Shown: in pieces, positions 29,596 through 41,330 of the stretch
Layout: each line of letters begins with the position of its first letter
Numbering within the stretch: the stretch's first letter is position 1
Made by a program: the position numbers and the translations under genes
The notes under the pieces: model-generated
Seen by the model: the letters and a program-made list of their open reading frames with translations, nothing else
The model's database searches: none
What the model was told of the DNA's origin: nothing
NCBI GenBank assembly: GCA_946407635.1
Contig: CAMJOZ010000005.1
Span: forward strand, 1-50,412
Direction of reading: 5' to 3'
Length of the DNA stretch: 50,412 nt
Source: an uncultured Caryophanales bacterium
GTDB lineage: Bacteria; Bacillota_I; Bacilli_A; Acholeplasmatales; Anaeroplasmataceae

Positions 29596-29775
29596 AAAAG
29601 TCCTTAGAAAAATCTAAGGACGAATTATCGCGGTACCACCTTAGTTCTATATCAAAGATATAGCACTCATTAATAGTAATTCTCATAATATGTATTTCAA
29701 TTATTTTATTCTATCTATTTCCACCAAACATAGACTCTCTAAAATGATATAAAACAATCTACTAATTATTAATCA
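29596..29775 (-). ncRNA. T-box leader of tyrS
   Basis: Minus-strand leader with the T-box core AAGGTGGTACCGCG (plus 29628-29642), a terminator GTCCTTAGA/TCTAAGGAC plus T-run (29596-29621), and a stem I with GGTGG in its distal part. The likely specifier is UAC (plus 29692-29694) in GAAAUACAU, a tyrosine codon, matching the downstream gene. Binding of uncharged tRNA-Tyr would favour the antiterminator. Confidence 0.93.
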
Positions 29776-29781
29776 TCGAAT

Positions 29782-30777
29782 TTATTTAGTTGATTCTCTT
29801 TCAACAATCTTATAAGGTAATAATACCTTAGTGTCTGTTACATCCTCATGAGTCATAAACTTAGTCAATAATCTCATTGAAACAGCGCCTATATCATACA
29901 CCGGAGTATCTACGCATGTCAAGGTTGGTCTTGATAAAAGTGCATATTTAGTATTTTGTAAACCAACTACAACTATATCATCAGGAACCTTAAATCCTTG
30001 CTTGAATGCAACATTAATAAAATTAACAGCGATTGAATCTCTAACAGCTATGATAGCTTCAACCTTGTTATTCTTTAAGAATTCTTGGAAGTGTAATGTA
30101 TTAATAGATACATCTCCACTTGTTCTAAAAACTAATGGCTCTAAACCAGCTTCTTTCATAGCTTTTGTGTAACCAGCAATCTTCTTATAATTGATTGCAT
30201 ATTTGTGAACTGTAGATGCTAAATATATTTTCTTTTTACCTGATTGTAATAATTCTTTAGTAATATCATATGTAGCTTCTTCATAATCTATAGCTACTGA
30301 TGGAATATCTTTCTCATCATAACAAGCATTACATAATACTACTGGTATTTGAGCATCAGAAATGTGATTTAAAACCATACCCATTTCATTTGGATCTAAT
30401 TCATCATTTAAGAATAAAATACCATCAACTTGTTCAGCAACTACTTGACGCATTACTTCTTTCTTATCAGAATCTTCATCCATTTCAAATAATTTAACAG
30501 CATATTCATACTTCTTAGCAACATCCAATATACCACCTAATAGTTGTGCACCAGCAGCTCTAGATACATCAGACATAATAATACCAACAGTAGTTGATTT
30601 ACGGCTAGCAAGACCTCTAGCAATAGCATTTGGTCTATATCCTAAATCTTTAATTACCTTTAAAACCTTTTCTCTTGTTTCAGGATTAACTTTTTCAGGG
30701 TTGTTCATTACACGACTTACAGTCGCAAGTGAAACCTTTGCCGCACCAGCAACATCATAAATTGTTGTATTTGCCAT
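29782..30777 (-). CDS. ccpA: catabolite control protein A (LacI family)
   Basis: A 331-aa LacI/GalR regulator very close to CcpA: N-terminal HTH TIYDVAGAAKVSLATVSRVM, hinge RPNAIARGLASRKSTTVG, effector domain, and YDIGAVSMRLLTKFM near the C terminus as in CcpA. It mediates carbon catabolite control with phospho-HPr in Bacillota. ATG 30777 has GAGGTGACAAG upstream; the longer frame to 30822 runs into the promoter. It ends just upstream of the tyrS T-box. Confidence 0.9.
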   Translation of the reverse strand: MANTTIYDVAGAAKVSLATVSRVMNNPEKVNPETREKVLKVIKDLGYRPNAIARGLASRKSTTVGIIMSDVSRAAGAQLLGGILDVAKKYEYAVKLFEMDEDSDKKEVMRQVVAEQVDGILFLNDELDPNEMGMVLNHISDAQIPVVLCNACYDEKDIPSVAIDYEEATYDITKELLQSGKKKIYLASTVHKYAINYKKIAGYTKAMKEAGLEPLVFRTSGDVSINTLHFQEFLKNNKVEAIIAVRDSIAVNFINVAFKQGFKVPDDIVVVGLQNTKYALLSRPTLTCVDTPVYDIGAVSMRLLTKFMTHEDVTDTKVLLPYKIVERESTK

Positions 30778-36235: not shown

Positions 36236-36300
36236 CCAAAAAACCAGCCACATTGTGACTGATTTTTTGTGTATTTATATTTCGAAGGAAAGGGCATAAA
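36236..36300 (-). ncRNA. 3'-UTR RNA element resembling the sRNA at 40390-40479
   Basis: The 3' UTR of the surface-protein gene has, in order, a C/U-rich segment GCCCUUUCCUUCG (plus 36283-36295), UAUAAAUACAC, and terminator AAUCAGUCACA/UGUGGCUGGUU with U-tail (36236-36264). The sRNA at 40390-40479 has UUUCCUUCCCUU, UAAAAAUACGC and terminator AACCAGUCA/UGGCUGGUU in the same order. The shared segments suggest a related 3'-UTR-derived sRNA or a decoy for its targets. Confidence 0.45.
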
Positions 36301-36302
36301 TT

Positions 36303-39300
36303 CTATTTAACTAATTCTTCTTTAGTATTAAATACTTCATTTTCTTCACGATATATAATCATTAATGTCATATTTAATAATCTAACCTTACCGTTCTTTT
36401 TACCAATTACGAATACTCTAATAGGATTACCATTTGCTAAAGTCCACTTATTGAATACAAAGAATAATAAGAAATAAGCTATAACTAAACCTAGGATGAT
36501 TCCACCCATAATGCCTAAAGCTACCATCCAACCTACAAGTGTTCTATGATCATTTCTTAAACCACTATAAGTTTTTTCATCAGTTGTTAATTTATCATAA
36601 TTGATAACTAAAGTTTTTTCTTCATCTGTTAAATTGTCATAAGCAATTCTTGCAGCCTCAAGACCTTCTTCAGTTTGATCATTATATTTAACTTCCTTAA
36701 CAGCTTCAATCTTCTTATATACATCATCTACATGATAATATAAGTCGACATCATGTGCTAAAGTTTGATAATTTGTTACTAAAGCTTTAGATTCAGTACT
36801 TAATTTATCATATTCAGTTTTAGCATTATCAATCTTAGTCTTTGATTCATTAGAATATGTAACTGTACCAATATTTTTAATTAATTCTATAACATAAGAA
36901 GCTTCTTTTTGAGTTAAAACATTATAATTTGATACAGCATTCTTAGCTTTTTGAGTTAAAGCATCATAAGCTGTACGAGCAGCATCAATTAATGCTTTAA
37001 TTTCAGGTTTATATTCTACATCACCAATATTATTAATTTTACCAATAACTAAACCAGCATTAGTATAATCATTTTCAGCTTCAACTAATGTATTATAATT
37101 AGTAACTTGTGCTTTTTCTTCTTCTTTTAAGAAATCATAAGCACCACGAGCAGCATCGATTTTTTCTTTACATAGATCTGTATATTCTACATTGCCAATA
37201 TCATTTATAAATCCAATAACATCCTCAGGTTTAATTCCTATAAAACTGATATATTTATAATTACCAATGTTATCTACACCAGTTGGACTAATTTCTATTT
37301 TAGTTTCATCTTGAGTTCCATCAACATCAGTCCAGCCAATACCTTCTATTTCATTTATTACAATACCATAGATTGCGTTTGTATATCCACTTGCAATAAG
37401 AGCTCTTACATTTTCACCAATAGTTATTGTTGAACCTGAAGCTATTGCATATGATTCTGTGTTTTCGCCAGTTACTGATATAGATAAAGATCCATTTCCA
37501 ATAAATTTGATTTTAGCACTTTCGTTACCAGAATTATGAATACCACATACTGCAAAAGGTGAATCATCTTGTGTAAGAACTATTGTATTATTACCAACTA
37601 AATTAATAGTAAAAACAACTTCATCTTCACCATCATAATCATAACTAATGGCTGCAATAAAATTATCACCAATATTTACGAAATTACTATATACTTTACC
37701 AGGACCTACATACTCATAACCATTTAATGTTAATGTATTAGTATCCTTATCATAACTCCAGCCTTTACCTTGTAAATTTGAATCATTTACAACTTGACCA
37801 TCAATAATTACTGTATTTGTATGATAATAATAAATTGTTTCGAATTTACGTTCAGGAGTTAAAGTTTTAGCTATTTCTAATGATTTATAGTTACCACCAA
37901 TTGCTTTTTCATATTCTTTAGCAGTTGCTCTAACTCGTGCTATATTATCAGTAATTGCAATAACACCACATGAGCCATCTTTACCAGAACCTATTCCAGA
38001 ACCACAATTTTCAGTACTACTACAACTACTATTTGCCTCAACAAATCCACCATCGATTGTTATATCGCCACAAGCTTCTCCCATAGCACTACCGATACCT
38101 GCACCATCAGTAGCTGTAGAATTAATACGGCCACCATTAATTGTAATATTTCCTGATTGAAGGTCATTATCTAAAGAATAACCGCCACCAATACCTGCAG
38201 CATTTGTTCCACCTATTGCATTAATGTCTCCACCATTAATTACAATATTACCGCTATTTGTATTAGCATTTCCTCCAATACCTGCAGCTCCATCTCTACC
38301 AGTAGAATCTAGTATACCATCTCCATCAATAGTTAATGTGTGTCCTTGTGGTACAAATATACCTGCACCACCATTAAATCCACATATATCATTATTTCCT
38401 TTTATAATTAATGTTGCATCACCTAAACATGTAATACCAGCAAAAGATCCTTCAGTTTTAGAACCACTAATATGAATATCCTTTAATGTAACTGTTGCAT
38501 TATCAGGAATAGAAATCTTAACTAGTCTTTGCAATTCACCTATTAATATTTGTCCATCAGGAACTATATAATCAGATGTAAGAACTGAAATATCAAATAC
38601 TTCTAATGGCTTAACAATTGAAACAAATCCATTTTCATCAGAACTGCCATCAGAATTAATATTTACAATTTCATATCCTGGAGCGACCTTATTAACATCA
38701 GCTAAATAATTGGTAATTATTTCAGCAGATAATACCAAACGACAATCACTCAATTTAACATATGAATTTGTAAGATTATTTCCTATAAAACATGAACCAT
38801 TAACTCCACCTGTATCAGGCCTACTGTTTCTTATTTCAACAACTATATTTTCTGATGAAACAAGTAATGTAGGAGTTCCATGAGAACCATCTTCCATTGT
38901 TGTTGTTAGAATATTACCATTAAGATCAAATGTAAAATTCTTAGTAATATTTATATGTTCATTAGATAAATCTACATTATGTCTTAATGTTATAGTTTCT
39001 CCATCATTTAAAGCAGCAAATGCCTCTGGTAAAAATGCATATTTTGTATTACCAATTTGAGCTTCAGCATTTTCTTCAAATAACTCATTAAATGATTCTT
39101 CTGCATCTAACAATGTTTGATAATTAGTTACAGCATTCTTTTCTTCAGCACTTAATGAATCGTAACCAGCTCTGGCTTCTTTAATTTTACCTTTTGATGT
39201 AGGTGTAAATTCAACTGTGCCTATATTACCAATTAAAGTTTCTACACCAGAAGCATTTATTTTCCACTTAGCATATAAGGCATCAGCATCTTCTAATATT

Positions 39301-40304
39301 AAACTATTAACATCTGATTCAGATAATTCTGTAGAATAATTATTTCCAGTTCCATCAGCTTTTGAATTCCAACCATTAAAACTAAATAATTCTCTACTAA
39401 ATCCAGTATTAGGAGCTTGATTTGCTTCATCATAAGTTAAGTTTATTGTTCCCGAACCAACTCCGCCATTACTATTAAGACTAACAGTTTTAGTTTTAGG
39501 AGTCGCATTAAATGAACCAAAATCAACAGTCTCATTACTTATAGTTCTTGATCCAACTCTATAAATAGCACCAGAAGTATTTGCAGTTCCAGATACCAAA
39601 GCCCAATCAGTTGAAGCATTATATCCAGCTTTTAGTTCAACAAATCCATATACTGTTGATTCTTCATCAAAACCTGAACCACTTGCACTTCCAGATGTAG
39701 CTGAATCACTATTTGATAAATATGCTGATTTTATACCTGTACCTGCAGTGATTGTTACTGTTTGTTGTGGCTGATCTTCAAAAAGTGTTATTTCATGAAC
39801 CCAGAATTGGACTTGATTTATGCTAGCATACGGAGAATCTTCAGTAGCAATAAAAGTAAAAACTATTTTATCGTTAGAACTTGGAAGCTCTACATCAAAT
39901 TCTGTATTATTGTCGTTTGTAATAGCTTTAGTCGTACTGGTAGTACCCTTTGTTATTTTAAAGTCAGCATTGTAAGCTATCGAAACACTTACGCCAAGTC
40001 TAACTTTTCTAATATTATATTGCTTTGTATTATTATAAGTTATCGTAACCGTATCGCCCTTGCCTGTAACAACAAAATCAAATTCAGGCTTAGATGTATA
40101 AGATTGTGTACCTTGACTAAATGTAAAATCACCAGATGTTTTAGTACCAGATGTAATCGAACCAACATCAAGAGCATCTACTTGTTTATAACTAATTTCA
40201 GCATAAGTCTTTGTTGTCGATAATAGCATAAATGCTAATGAACAAACAAAAACAAATAAAGCAATAATAGGAAATAGAATCCTCTTTCTAAATAATTTGC
40301 TCAT
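36303..40304 (-). CDS. giant cell-surface protein, beta-helix and helical repeats, C-terminal TM
   Basis: A 1333-aa secreted protein. In order: signal peptide (1-~36, FLLST...TYAE region); an N-terminal beta-rich module; a Listeria-Bacteroides (InlB B) repeat with SFNGWNSKADGTGNNYS (about 270-345); one ~50-residue helical repeat (IGTVEFTP...YDSLSAEEKNAVTNY); a Gly/Asn-rich right-handed beta-helix (GNIVINGGDINAIGG..., AAGIGGG, GAGIGS, GSGIGSG; about 590-770); four more helical repeats (about 1010-1230); then one membrane helix (GIMGGIILGLVIAYFLLFF) and a ~55-residue cytoplasmic tail. There is no LPXTG. AAGGAGG precedes the ATG. It is likely an adhesin or glycan-binding protein. Its promoter shares a 22-bp element with the adjacent sRNA. 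Confidence 0.88.
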   Translation of the reverse strand: MSKLFRKRILFPIIALFVFVCSLAFMLLSTTKTYAEISYKQVDALDVGSITSGTKTSGDFTFSQGTQSYTSKPEFDFVVTGKGDTVTITYNNTKQYNIRKVRLGVSVSIAYNADFKITKGTTSTTKAITNDNNTEFDVELPSSNDKIVFTFIATEDSPYASINQVQFWVHEITLFEDQPQQTVTITAGTGIKSAYLSNSDSATSGSASGSGFDEESTVYGFVELKAGYNASTDWALVSGTANTSGAIYRVGSRTISNETVDFGSFNATPKTKTVSLNSNGGVGSGTINLTYDEANQAPNTGFSRELFSFNGWNSKADGTGNNYSTELSESDVNSLILEDADALYAKWKINASGVETLIGNIGTVEFTPTSKGKIKEARAGYDSLSAEEKNAVTNYQTLLDAEESFNELFEENAEAQIGNTKYAFLPEAFAALNDGETITLRHNVDLSNEHINITKNFTFDLNGNILTTTMEDGSHGTPTLLVSSENIVVEIRNSRPDTGGVNGSCFIGNNLTNSYVKLSDCRLVLSAEIITNYLADVNKVAPGYEIVNINSDGSSDENGFVSIVKPLEVFDISVLTSDYIVPDGQILIGELQRLVKISIPDNATVTLKDIHISGSKTEGSFAGITCLGDATLIIKGNNDICGFNGGAGIFVPQGHTLTIDGDGILDSTGRDGAAGIGGNANTNSGNIVINGGDINAIGGTNAAGIGGGYSLDNDLQSGNITINGGRINSTATDGAGIGSAMGEACGDITIDGGFVEANSSCSSTENCGSGIGSGKDGSCGVIAITDNIARVRATAKEYEKAIGGNYKSLEIAKTLTPERKFETIYYYHTNTVIIDGQVVNDSNLQGKGWSYDKDTNTLTLNGYEYVGPGKVYSNFVNIGDNFIAAISYDYDGEDEVVFTINLVGNNTIVLTQDDSPFAVCGIHNSGNESAKIKFIGNGSLSISVTGENTESYAIASGSTITIGENVRALIASGYTNAIYGIVINEIEGIGWTDVDGTQDETKIEISPTGVDNIGNYKYISFIGIKPEDVIGFINDIGNVEYTDLCKEKIDAARGAYDFLKEEEKAQVTNYNTLVEAENDYTNAGLVIGKINNIGDVEYKPEIKALIDAARTAYDALTQKAKNAVSNYNVLTQKEASYVIELIKNIGTVTYSNESKTKIDNAKTEYDKLSTESKALVTNYQTLAHDVDLYYHVDDVYKKIEAVKEVKYNDQTEEGLEAARIAYDNLTDEEKTLVINYDKLTTDEKTYSGLRNDHRTLVGWMVALGIMGGIILGLVIAYFLLFFVFNKWTLANGNPIRVFVIGKKNGKVRLLNMTLMIIYREENEVFNTKEELVK

Positions 40305-40356
40305 AATTAAGTTCCTCCTTAATATAAAATTAAAACACTTCGATTAACTTACAAAC

Positions 40357-40392
40357 ATTCTATCACTACTACTGCAACAAAAGTGCAACAAA
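40357..40392 (-). promoter_or_regulatory. promoter A of the surface protein with SARP-like direct repeats
   Basis: On the minus strand TGTTGCA (40384-40390), CTTT, TGTTGCA (40373-40379), 10 bp, TAGAAT (40357-40362). No good -35 is present at the expected place, as expected for an activator-dependent promoter. The heptamers repeat at an 11-bp period, the arrangement known for SARP-type regulators. Confidence 0.7.
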
Positions 40393-40479
40393 GAAAAAAC
40401 CAGCCATTTCTGACTGGTTCTTCTTAGCGTATTTTTAAGGGAAGGAAATTCAAAGAAATTACATCATTTCATGTAATCT
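40390..40479 (-). ncRNA. candidate ~90-nt sRNA upstream of the surface-protein gene
   Basis: Transcribed from promoter B (TATAAT 40486-40491), predicted start near 40479. 5' hairpin AUUACAU/AUGUAAU (40458-40477), a single-stranded C/U-rich segment UUUCCUUCCCUU (40437-40448), UAAAAAUACGC, then terminator AACCAGUCA-GAAA-UGGCUGGUU plus U-tail (40394-40419). No ORF of note. The C/U-rich segment is complementary to AAGGGAAGGAAA-like ribosome binding sites, the usual mode of Gram-positive C-rich sRNAs. A related element ends the surface-protein mRNA. Confidence 0.55.
40394..40419 (-). terminator. terminator of the candidate sRNA
   Basis: Minus strand AACCAGTCA-GAAA-TGGCTGGTT followed by TTTTC; it ends a few bases before the direct repeats of promoter A. 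Confidence 0.8.
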
Positions 40480-40485
40480 GGCCTC

Positions 40486-40521
40486 ATTATAACAAACTAA
40501 CTGCAACAAAAGTGCAACAAA
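40486..40521 (-). promoter_or_regulatory. promoter B of the candidate sRNA with SARP-like direct repeats
   Basis: On the minus strand TGTTGCA (40513-40519), CTTT, TGTTGCA (40502-40508), 10 bp, TATAAT (40486-40491). The 22 bp at 40500-40521 are identical to 40371-40392 of promoter A, and the distance to the -10 is also identical. Confidence 0.7.
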
Positions 40522-40552
40522 TAAAAAAAATGCCACAATAAATGTGACATTT
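40521..40552 (-). terminator. terminator after the response-regulator gene
   Basis: Minus strand AAATGTCACA-TTTAT-TGTGGCATTT plus T-run, overlapping the stop codon. It separates the two-component operon from promoter B. Confidence 0.8.
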
Positions 40553-41330
40553 AATCAGCATATTCATCTTCATCATTAAATAATGCCCATGAATATTGAA
40601 TCATATATTCTCCTCTATAGCTTCTGATAGCATCAGGATTATTATTTTTATATTCATATGCATCACAATCAATTTTTGTAATATCTATAAAGCATTCATT
40701 ATGTCTTTTGACAAAAACGTCTTGAGCGTCTACTTCTTTTAATGTATCTTGAATATCTGCAATTAGATTTCTTAAATATGAATTCTTATCTTCTTCCCAT
40801 AATATGGCATTAAGCTCGTTCATATTTGTAGAAGCTCCTTCTCTATCAACTAAATAAGCAAATAATTCTTTTGATTTTTGTCTTTTAAATTTTAATGGAA
40901 CACCATCTTTAAACACTTCGAAATTTCCAAAACATTTAACTTGTAATAATTTATCAGTACTTGGTTTTAATTCTTCAGTATATCTTAAGCTTTCTAATTG
41001 ATCTTTTATTTTATTTTCAGTTACAGGCTTCATTACATATCCTGAGGCATGAATATTATATGCATCTAAAGCATAATTATTATAAGCTGTAACGAATATA
41101 ATATTTATTAATGGATTAATCTTCTTTAATTTTTTAGCAAGCTGAATACCAGTTAATACAGGCATTTCAATATCTAAAAAAGCTATATCAAATTTATTTT
41201 CTATATTTTCTTCATACGCTTTTTTAGGATTTGTGTATTTAAAAAATTCTTCATTAGGCAAAACCTTTTTACAAACATTTTCTAATCTTACCAATTGTAA
41301 TTCTTCATCATCAACTAACAAGATTTTCAA
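40551..41330 (-). CDS. response regulator with SARP-type winged-helix output
   Basis: 259 aa. Receiver domain (about 1-118) with acidic DDEE, phosphorylated Asp in FLDIEMP, Thr in FVTAYN and Lys in VMKPV. The output domain (about 128-225: QVKCFGNFEVFKDGVPLKF, RQKSKELFAYLVDREG, LNAILWEE) is the winged helix of SARP/COG3947-type regulators, not LytTR. It follows the histidine kinase by 10 bp. The start is TTG at 41330 with GAGGTGAT upstream. The heptamer direct repeats just downstream are its likely targets. Confidence 0.88.
   Translation of the reverse strand: MKILLVDDEELQLVRLENVCKKVLPNEEFFKYTNPKKAYEENIENKFDIAFLDIEMPVLTGIQLAKKLKKINPLINIIFVTAYNNYALDAYNIHASGYVMKPVTENKIKDQLESLRYTEELKPSTDKLLQVKCFGNFEVFKDGVPLKFKRQKSKELFAYLVDREGASTNMNELNAILWEEDKNSYLRNLIADIQDTLKEVDAQDVFVKRHNECFIDITKIDCDAYEYKNNNPDAIRSYRGEYMIQYSWALFNDEDEYAD

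Follow-up and report, generated by a model that had tools for sequence, protein, structure and literature searches.

Two families of short bacterial RNAs under two-component control, and one class of promoters, are the closest described counterparts of the locus reported here, which lies in a 50,412-nt stretch of DNA (the window; contig C5 of a 1.49-Mb draft genome) from an uncultured gut bacterium of the Caryophanales and comprises a two-component system, a predicted small RNA (sRNA) and a surface-protein gene. The csRNAs of the CiaRH regulon of Streptococcus are short intergenic RNAs that start from a response regulator (RR) direct repeat of 11-bp period and end in a terminator; in each, two stem-loops flank an unpaired linker with anti-Shine-Dalgarno sequence, and their sequence and size vary by species (PMC3091779). 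In Listeria, the LisRK two-component system drives LhrC, which is likewise short and C/U-rich and masks Shine-Dalgarno sequences (PMC4132741). SARP-type promoters (AfsR and relatives) contain two 11-bp direct repeats that overlap the -35 region at a fixed distance from the -10 element (PMC10936776). Our best reading, by analogy, is that the sRNA in the window would work like the CiaR csRNAs and LhrC, while being homologous to neither by the tests that we ran.

On the minus strand, the locus runs from the histidine kinase gene through the RR gene, a terminator, operator 1, the sRNA, operator 2 and the surface-protein gene to a final terminator (Table 1). The operator is a 19-bp element with two repeats in 11-bp phase (TTGTTGCANNTTTGTTGCA). 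Exact copies occur at only two sites in the genome, ahead of the sRNA and ahead of the surface-protein gene, and these identical sites are 129 bp apart. In a comparison of 55 genomes of the family, we found the operator in all 13 that carry an RR ortholog versus 2 of the 42 that do not (Fisher 7e-11); a reversed control pattern was found in 0. Across the genus, the motif is located either 3' of the RR gene or 5' of surface-protein, lipoprotein and other genes, with 10 nt between the end of the operator repeat and the -10 box at nearly all sites, and distant RR orthologs have operator variants such as TTGTGGCACTTTTGTGGCA downstream. We infer that the RR binds the operator.

A structure model of the RR, of moderate confidence (mean pLDDT 72), returned full-length OmpR/PhoB-type regulators as its top matches in a Foldseek search (E 1e-11). 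The closest named relatives by RR are metagenome-assembled genomes labelled Acholeplasmatales, Bacillales or Erysipelotrichaceae, many of them from rumen samples. As in SARP-type promoters, the operators in the window consist of two repeats of 11-bp period at a fixed distance from the -10 box. Unlike the SARP regulators, the RR is a 259-aa receiver and winged-helix protein; it ends at 259 aa, and Pfam found no BTA domain after the winged helix.

The transcript that would start from operator 1 contains no open reading frame (ORF). In its predicted fold (z = -3.4), a C/U-rich linker is left unpaired between a 5' hairpin and the terminator. A preliminary description of this DNA had proposed that a short C/U-rich RNA and the surface-protein gene are under common regulation; the identical operators, together with comparable operator-driven RNAs in relatives, support such a stand-alone RNA as a prediction. 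It had also assigned the sRNA and the 3' untranslated region (3' UTR) of the surface-protein mRNA to the two ends of one transcription unit; this part has to be given up, because the sRNA has its own operator, promoter and terminator, and the second operator starts the mRNA past that terminator.

Like the CiaR csRNAs, the window RNA lies between genes, with an RR-type promoter ahead of it and a terminator at its end, and its predicted length of about 85 nt is within their range of 51-202 nt. Its linker is unpaired and complementary over 13 nt to one ribosome-binding site, with weak significance compared to shuffles. The differences are that the operator is TTGTTGCANNTTTGTTGCA (TTGTTGCACTTTTGTTGCA) and not TTTAAG-N5-TTTAAG, that the regulator is another one, that one copy was found here, that the linker has no anti-AUG and that the RNA has no Rfam match. 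The G025 RNA and the L156 group described below resemble LhrC in having C/U-rich loops. LhrC, however, carries several redundant CU-rich motifs (loop, linker and terminator loop), whereas the window RNA has one, in the linker, and in the window a surface protein is predicted to be co-activated. No match to the LhrC family reached the gathering score in the window, and a search of Rfam at E up to 1 gave one weak match, to an unrelated family and far below gathering scores.

Nine further operator-driven transcripts without an ORF were gathered from relatives without selection on C/U content. Three come from congeners: the one in G025 has the same place and the same double-operator layout as the sRNA in the window, and those in G009 and G013 are located elsewhere, and the gene that follows is not operator-driven. 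The remaining six, from rumen Bacilli (L156, L158, L161, L163, L166 and L168), lie directly 3' of an RR ortholog. Three of these (L156, L158 and L161) were found via their similarity to L163; their operators, identified by eye, are variants such as TCCGTTGCGCTTTTGTGACA, and the L158 RNA reaches the contig end ahead of its terminator. Pyrimidine tracts of 9 nt or more that include three or more C were present in 8 of the 9 RNAs versus 1 of 67 operator-driven mRNA leaders, although the nine represent fewer independent lineages, so that this count overstates the number of events. The six RNAs of the L group have in common a conserved stem with compensatory changes that bears a C/U-rich loop, and three of them (L156, L158 and L161) also contain the 11-mer UUCCUUCCCUU of the window sRNA. 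The L-group RNA (L161:10866-11105, with counterparts in the other five) is a longer structured RNA of about 200-250 nt with several C/U-rich segments and no Rfam match.

We consider it reasonably likely that the window encodes an RR-controlled, trans-acting sRNA whose linker blocks Shine-Dalgarno regions and which is co-activated with the surface protein, its likeness to the surface-protein 3' UTR being due mostly to terminators and chance. In the mechanism that these sequence features suggest, the RR of the two-component system would bind the 11-bp-phased direct repeat and switch on two adjacent promoters, giving rise to a stand-alone RNA of ~85 nt and to a large surface protein. The unpaired C/U-rich linker of the sRNA would pair in trans with purine-rich Shine-Dalgarno regions, and this pairing would keep mRNAs outside the regulon, plausibly those of other surface lipoproteins, from being translated. 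Because the RR would activate the surface protein while the sRNA blocks other mRNAs, one surface protein would be made and others silenced.

Elsewhere in the genome, AAGGGAAGGAAA, the exact complement of the 12-nt linker, occurs at one site only, which is the ribosome-binding site of an InlB-repeat-like surface lipoprotein (L249, on G000:C19), 4 nt before the ATG; here linker and leader are predicted to pair continuously over 13 nt. Complements with a single mismatch occur at four sites, one of which likewise coincides with a secreted protein's ribosome-binding site (L252). On the contig of the lipoprotein gene, we found no operator at up to three mismatches. As a target, the lipoprotein match is only suggestive, because equally good matches are obtained with about 3% of shuffled linkers. 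In G013, a search with the 22-nt complement of its own sRNA matched only itself.

Several points speak against a trans-acting sRNA. The sRNA is a prediction from sequence. Ribosome-binding-site matches of at least 13 nt were obtained with 11 of 400 dinucleotide-shuffled linkers and 24 of 600 permuted cores, the sample of 344 potential target genes was picked to include the contig of the lipoprotein, and a foreign sRNA (that of G013) attains 12 nt on the same sample. When targets were ranked by duplex energy, the best were no better than for shuffled linkers. C/U content alone was not above dinucleotide shuffles in anti-Shine-Dalgarno energy, a comparison that is uninformative because shuffling preserves C/U content. 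As a control, the mRNA leaders used above are imperfect, being shorter and having to contain a Shine-Dalgarno sequence. The window sRNA shows weak homology to the other RNAs, with only G013 exceeding shuffles (p about 0.015), and the short RNAs taken together were too divergent for a usable MAFFT alignment. Given the common layout despite weak homology, conservation appears to lie in the position, the promoter and the C/U tract, and not in the sequence.

The short unit could instead be an attenuated leader, in which promoter 1 and the terminator only tune the flow of polymerase into the surface-protein gene, the RNA itself being without function in trans. This would suit its place directly upstream of an operator-driven gene in the window and in G025. 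However, a complete second operator and -10 box start the gene past the terminator, and no operator-driven gene follows the G009 and G013 RNAs; in G009, a separate sigma-70-like promoter, recognised by eye, precedes the next gene. C/U tracts also recur among the comparable RNAs. We regard an attenuated leader as unlikely.

The remaining two alternatives involve the likeness between the sRNA and the surface-protein 3' UTR, which the preliminary description had interpreted as kinship. The shared strings do exist: on the minus strand, UUUCCUUC occurs at 40441-40448 (inside UUUCCUUCCCUU) and at 36284-36291 (inside CCCUUUCCUUC), and downstream of each copy come an A/U-rich stretch with AAAUAC and then a terminator. 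Their significance is weak. The two sequences align with a Smith-Waterman score of 48, which 0 of 400 shuffled sequences reach; shuffles destroy terminators, so we set this result aside and used real terminators as the fair control. We collected 164 real terminator regions from 442 kb of the genome, and 39 of their 13,366 pairs had a score of 48 or more. The 3' UTR was the best match to the sRNA among the sampled terminators (next 41), with the order of segments kept, but the 3' UTR scores higher with a third terminator (58). For the 45 nt upstream of the two terminators, the score was 24, which is attained by 891 of the 13,366 pairs (6.7%). TTTCCTTC occurs five times in the window, a number that 10 of 100 shuffles attain. 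Pyrimidine tracts by the above definition are uncommon ahead of terminators (4 of the 164, those of the sRNA and the 3' UTR among them), and no such tract follows the stop codon in 13 homologues of the surface-protein C-terminus (two of which, L317 and L318, are less certain, as the printed stop is well past the matched end). Conservation in relatives therefore extends to the sRNA design, seen in the comparable operator-driven RNAs, and not to the 3' UTR segment. Since the window offers many terminator pairs to choose from, a pair so alike is unsurprising; the likeness is probably a coincidence, mostly of two similar terminators and a chance pyrimidine tract, and the case shows that the likeness of two terminators can mislead.

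The same data bear on whether the short unit is all that remains of a second, tandem surface-protein gene that was deleted, with only its operator, old 3' UTR and terminator left. Such an origin would account for the second operator copy as well as for the resemblance to the 3' UTR of the present gene; the closely spaced identical operators and the rank of the 3' UTR as top match agree with it, and relatives often have operator-driven surface genes in tandem. Yet the 3' UTR matches another terminator better, the parts upstream of the terminators are unremarkable by themselves, and the comparable RNAs in relatives have unrelated terminators, which makes the sRNA design independent of a remnant origin. 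We judge a remnant to be distinctly improbable. The preliminary description had suggested that a second sRNA is released from the 3' UTR, or that the 3' UTR serves as a sponge with targets or a protein in common with the sRNA. Both are very improbable: the 3' UTR tract is one of only four before sampled terminators, but it is missing from the homologous 3' ends, the 3' UTR has no operator of its own, its best ribosome-binding-site match is 9 nt, below the shuffle median, and its likeness to the sRNA is inside the range of real terminators.

Table 1. Features of the locus, with positions in the window
Feature	Position	Strand	Basis
Histidine kinase gene, 419 aa	41341..42600	-	Pfam His_kinase 1e-22, HATPase_c 2e-9
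RR gene, 259 aa, receiver domain and predicted winged-helix output	40551..41330	-	Pfam Response_reg 1.5e-19; Foldseek
Terminator of RR gene	40528..40552	-	10-bp stem and T run
Operator 1 (TTGTTGCACTTTTGTTGCA), for sRNA	40502..40520	-	-10 TATAAT at 40486-40491
Predicted sRNA, about 85 nt, without ORF	40394..40479	-	Operator and -10 upstream, terminator downstream, fold z = -3.4
5' hairpin of sRNA	40456-40479	-	Predicted fold
C/U-rich linker of sRNA (UUUCCUUCCCUU), predicted target-binding segment	40437..40448	-	Unpaired in fold; genome complement search
Intrinsic terminator of sRNA	40394..40423	-	Stem 40423-40394
Operator 2, same 19 bp as operator 1, for surface-protein mRNA	40373..40391	-	-10 TAGAAT at 40357-40362
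Surface-protein gene, 1333 aa	36303..40304	-	Signal-like segment N-terminal, transmembrane-like segment C-terminal
C/U tract (CCCUUUCCUUC) in surface-protein 3' UTR	36284..36294	-	Present; not conserved in homologues
Terminator of surface-protein mRNA	36237..36269	-	Stem 36269-36237

Relatives of the surface-protein C-terminus are mostly found in genomes that bear the operator. Within the genome of the window, two operator-like sites with one mismatch also have -10 boxes (G000:C15:17218-17252 and G000:C54:8487-8521); they lie upstream of lipoprotein-like genes and are probably further members of the regulon. Some other matches to the operator pattern were discarded, being inside apparently conserved coding sequence and without a -10 box. 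Just past the RR stop codon in L138, L154, L167 and L169, the -10 box of the operator is located within a hairpin stem that is followed by a T run; this hairpin is apparently the RR terminator, and promoter and terminator would thus overlap. Downstream of the RR in L042, L043, L044 and L048, we observed long arrays of operator-driven genes, whose products are MPKYKPLTEEEK-type cytosolic proteins, large surface proteins and lipoprotein-like MKPKHYI proteins. We take these arrays to be a surface system under the RR. Elsewhere in the window, a T-box leader is present at 29613-29785 on the minus strand (Rfam 97.7 bits).

A limited literature search found no described small RNAs in uncultured rumen Bacilli, for which our analysis predicts a two-component regulon of operator, RR, surface proteins and sRNA. 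More tentatively, and with the odds in our view against it, an RR-linked sRNA module may be widespread in these bacteria: the RR would carry an operator-driven RNA right behind its own gene, the sequence of which turns over fast while C/U-rich target-binding segments are kept, and each signal would activate one set of surface proteins and silence another at translation. The locus would be a further case of the csRNA and LhrC arrangement with an unrelated regulator, and it may be useful for asking how often RRs acquire C/U-rich sRNAs and how fast such RNAs change.
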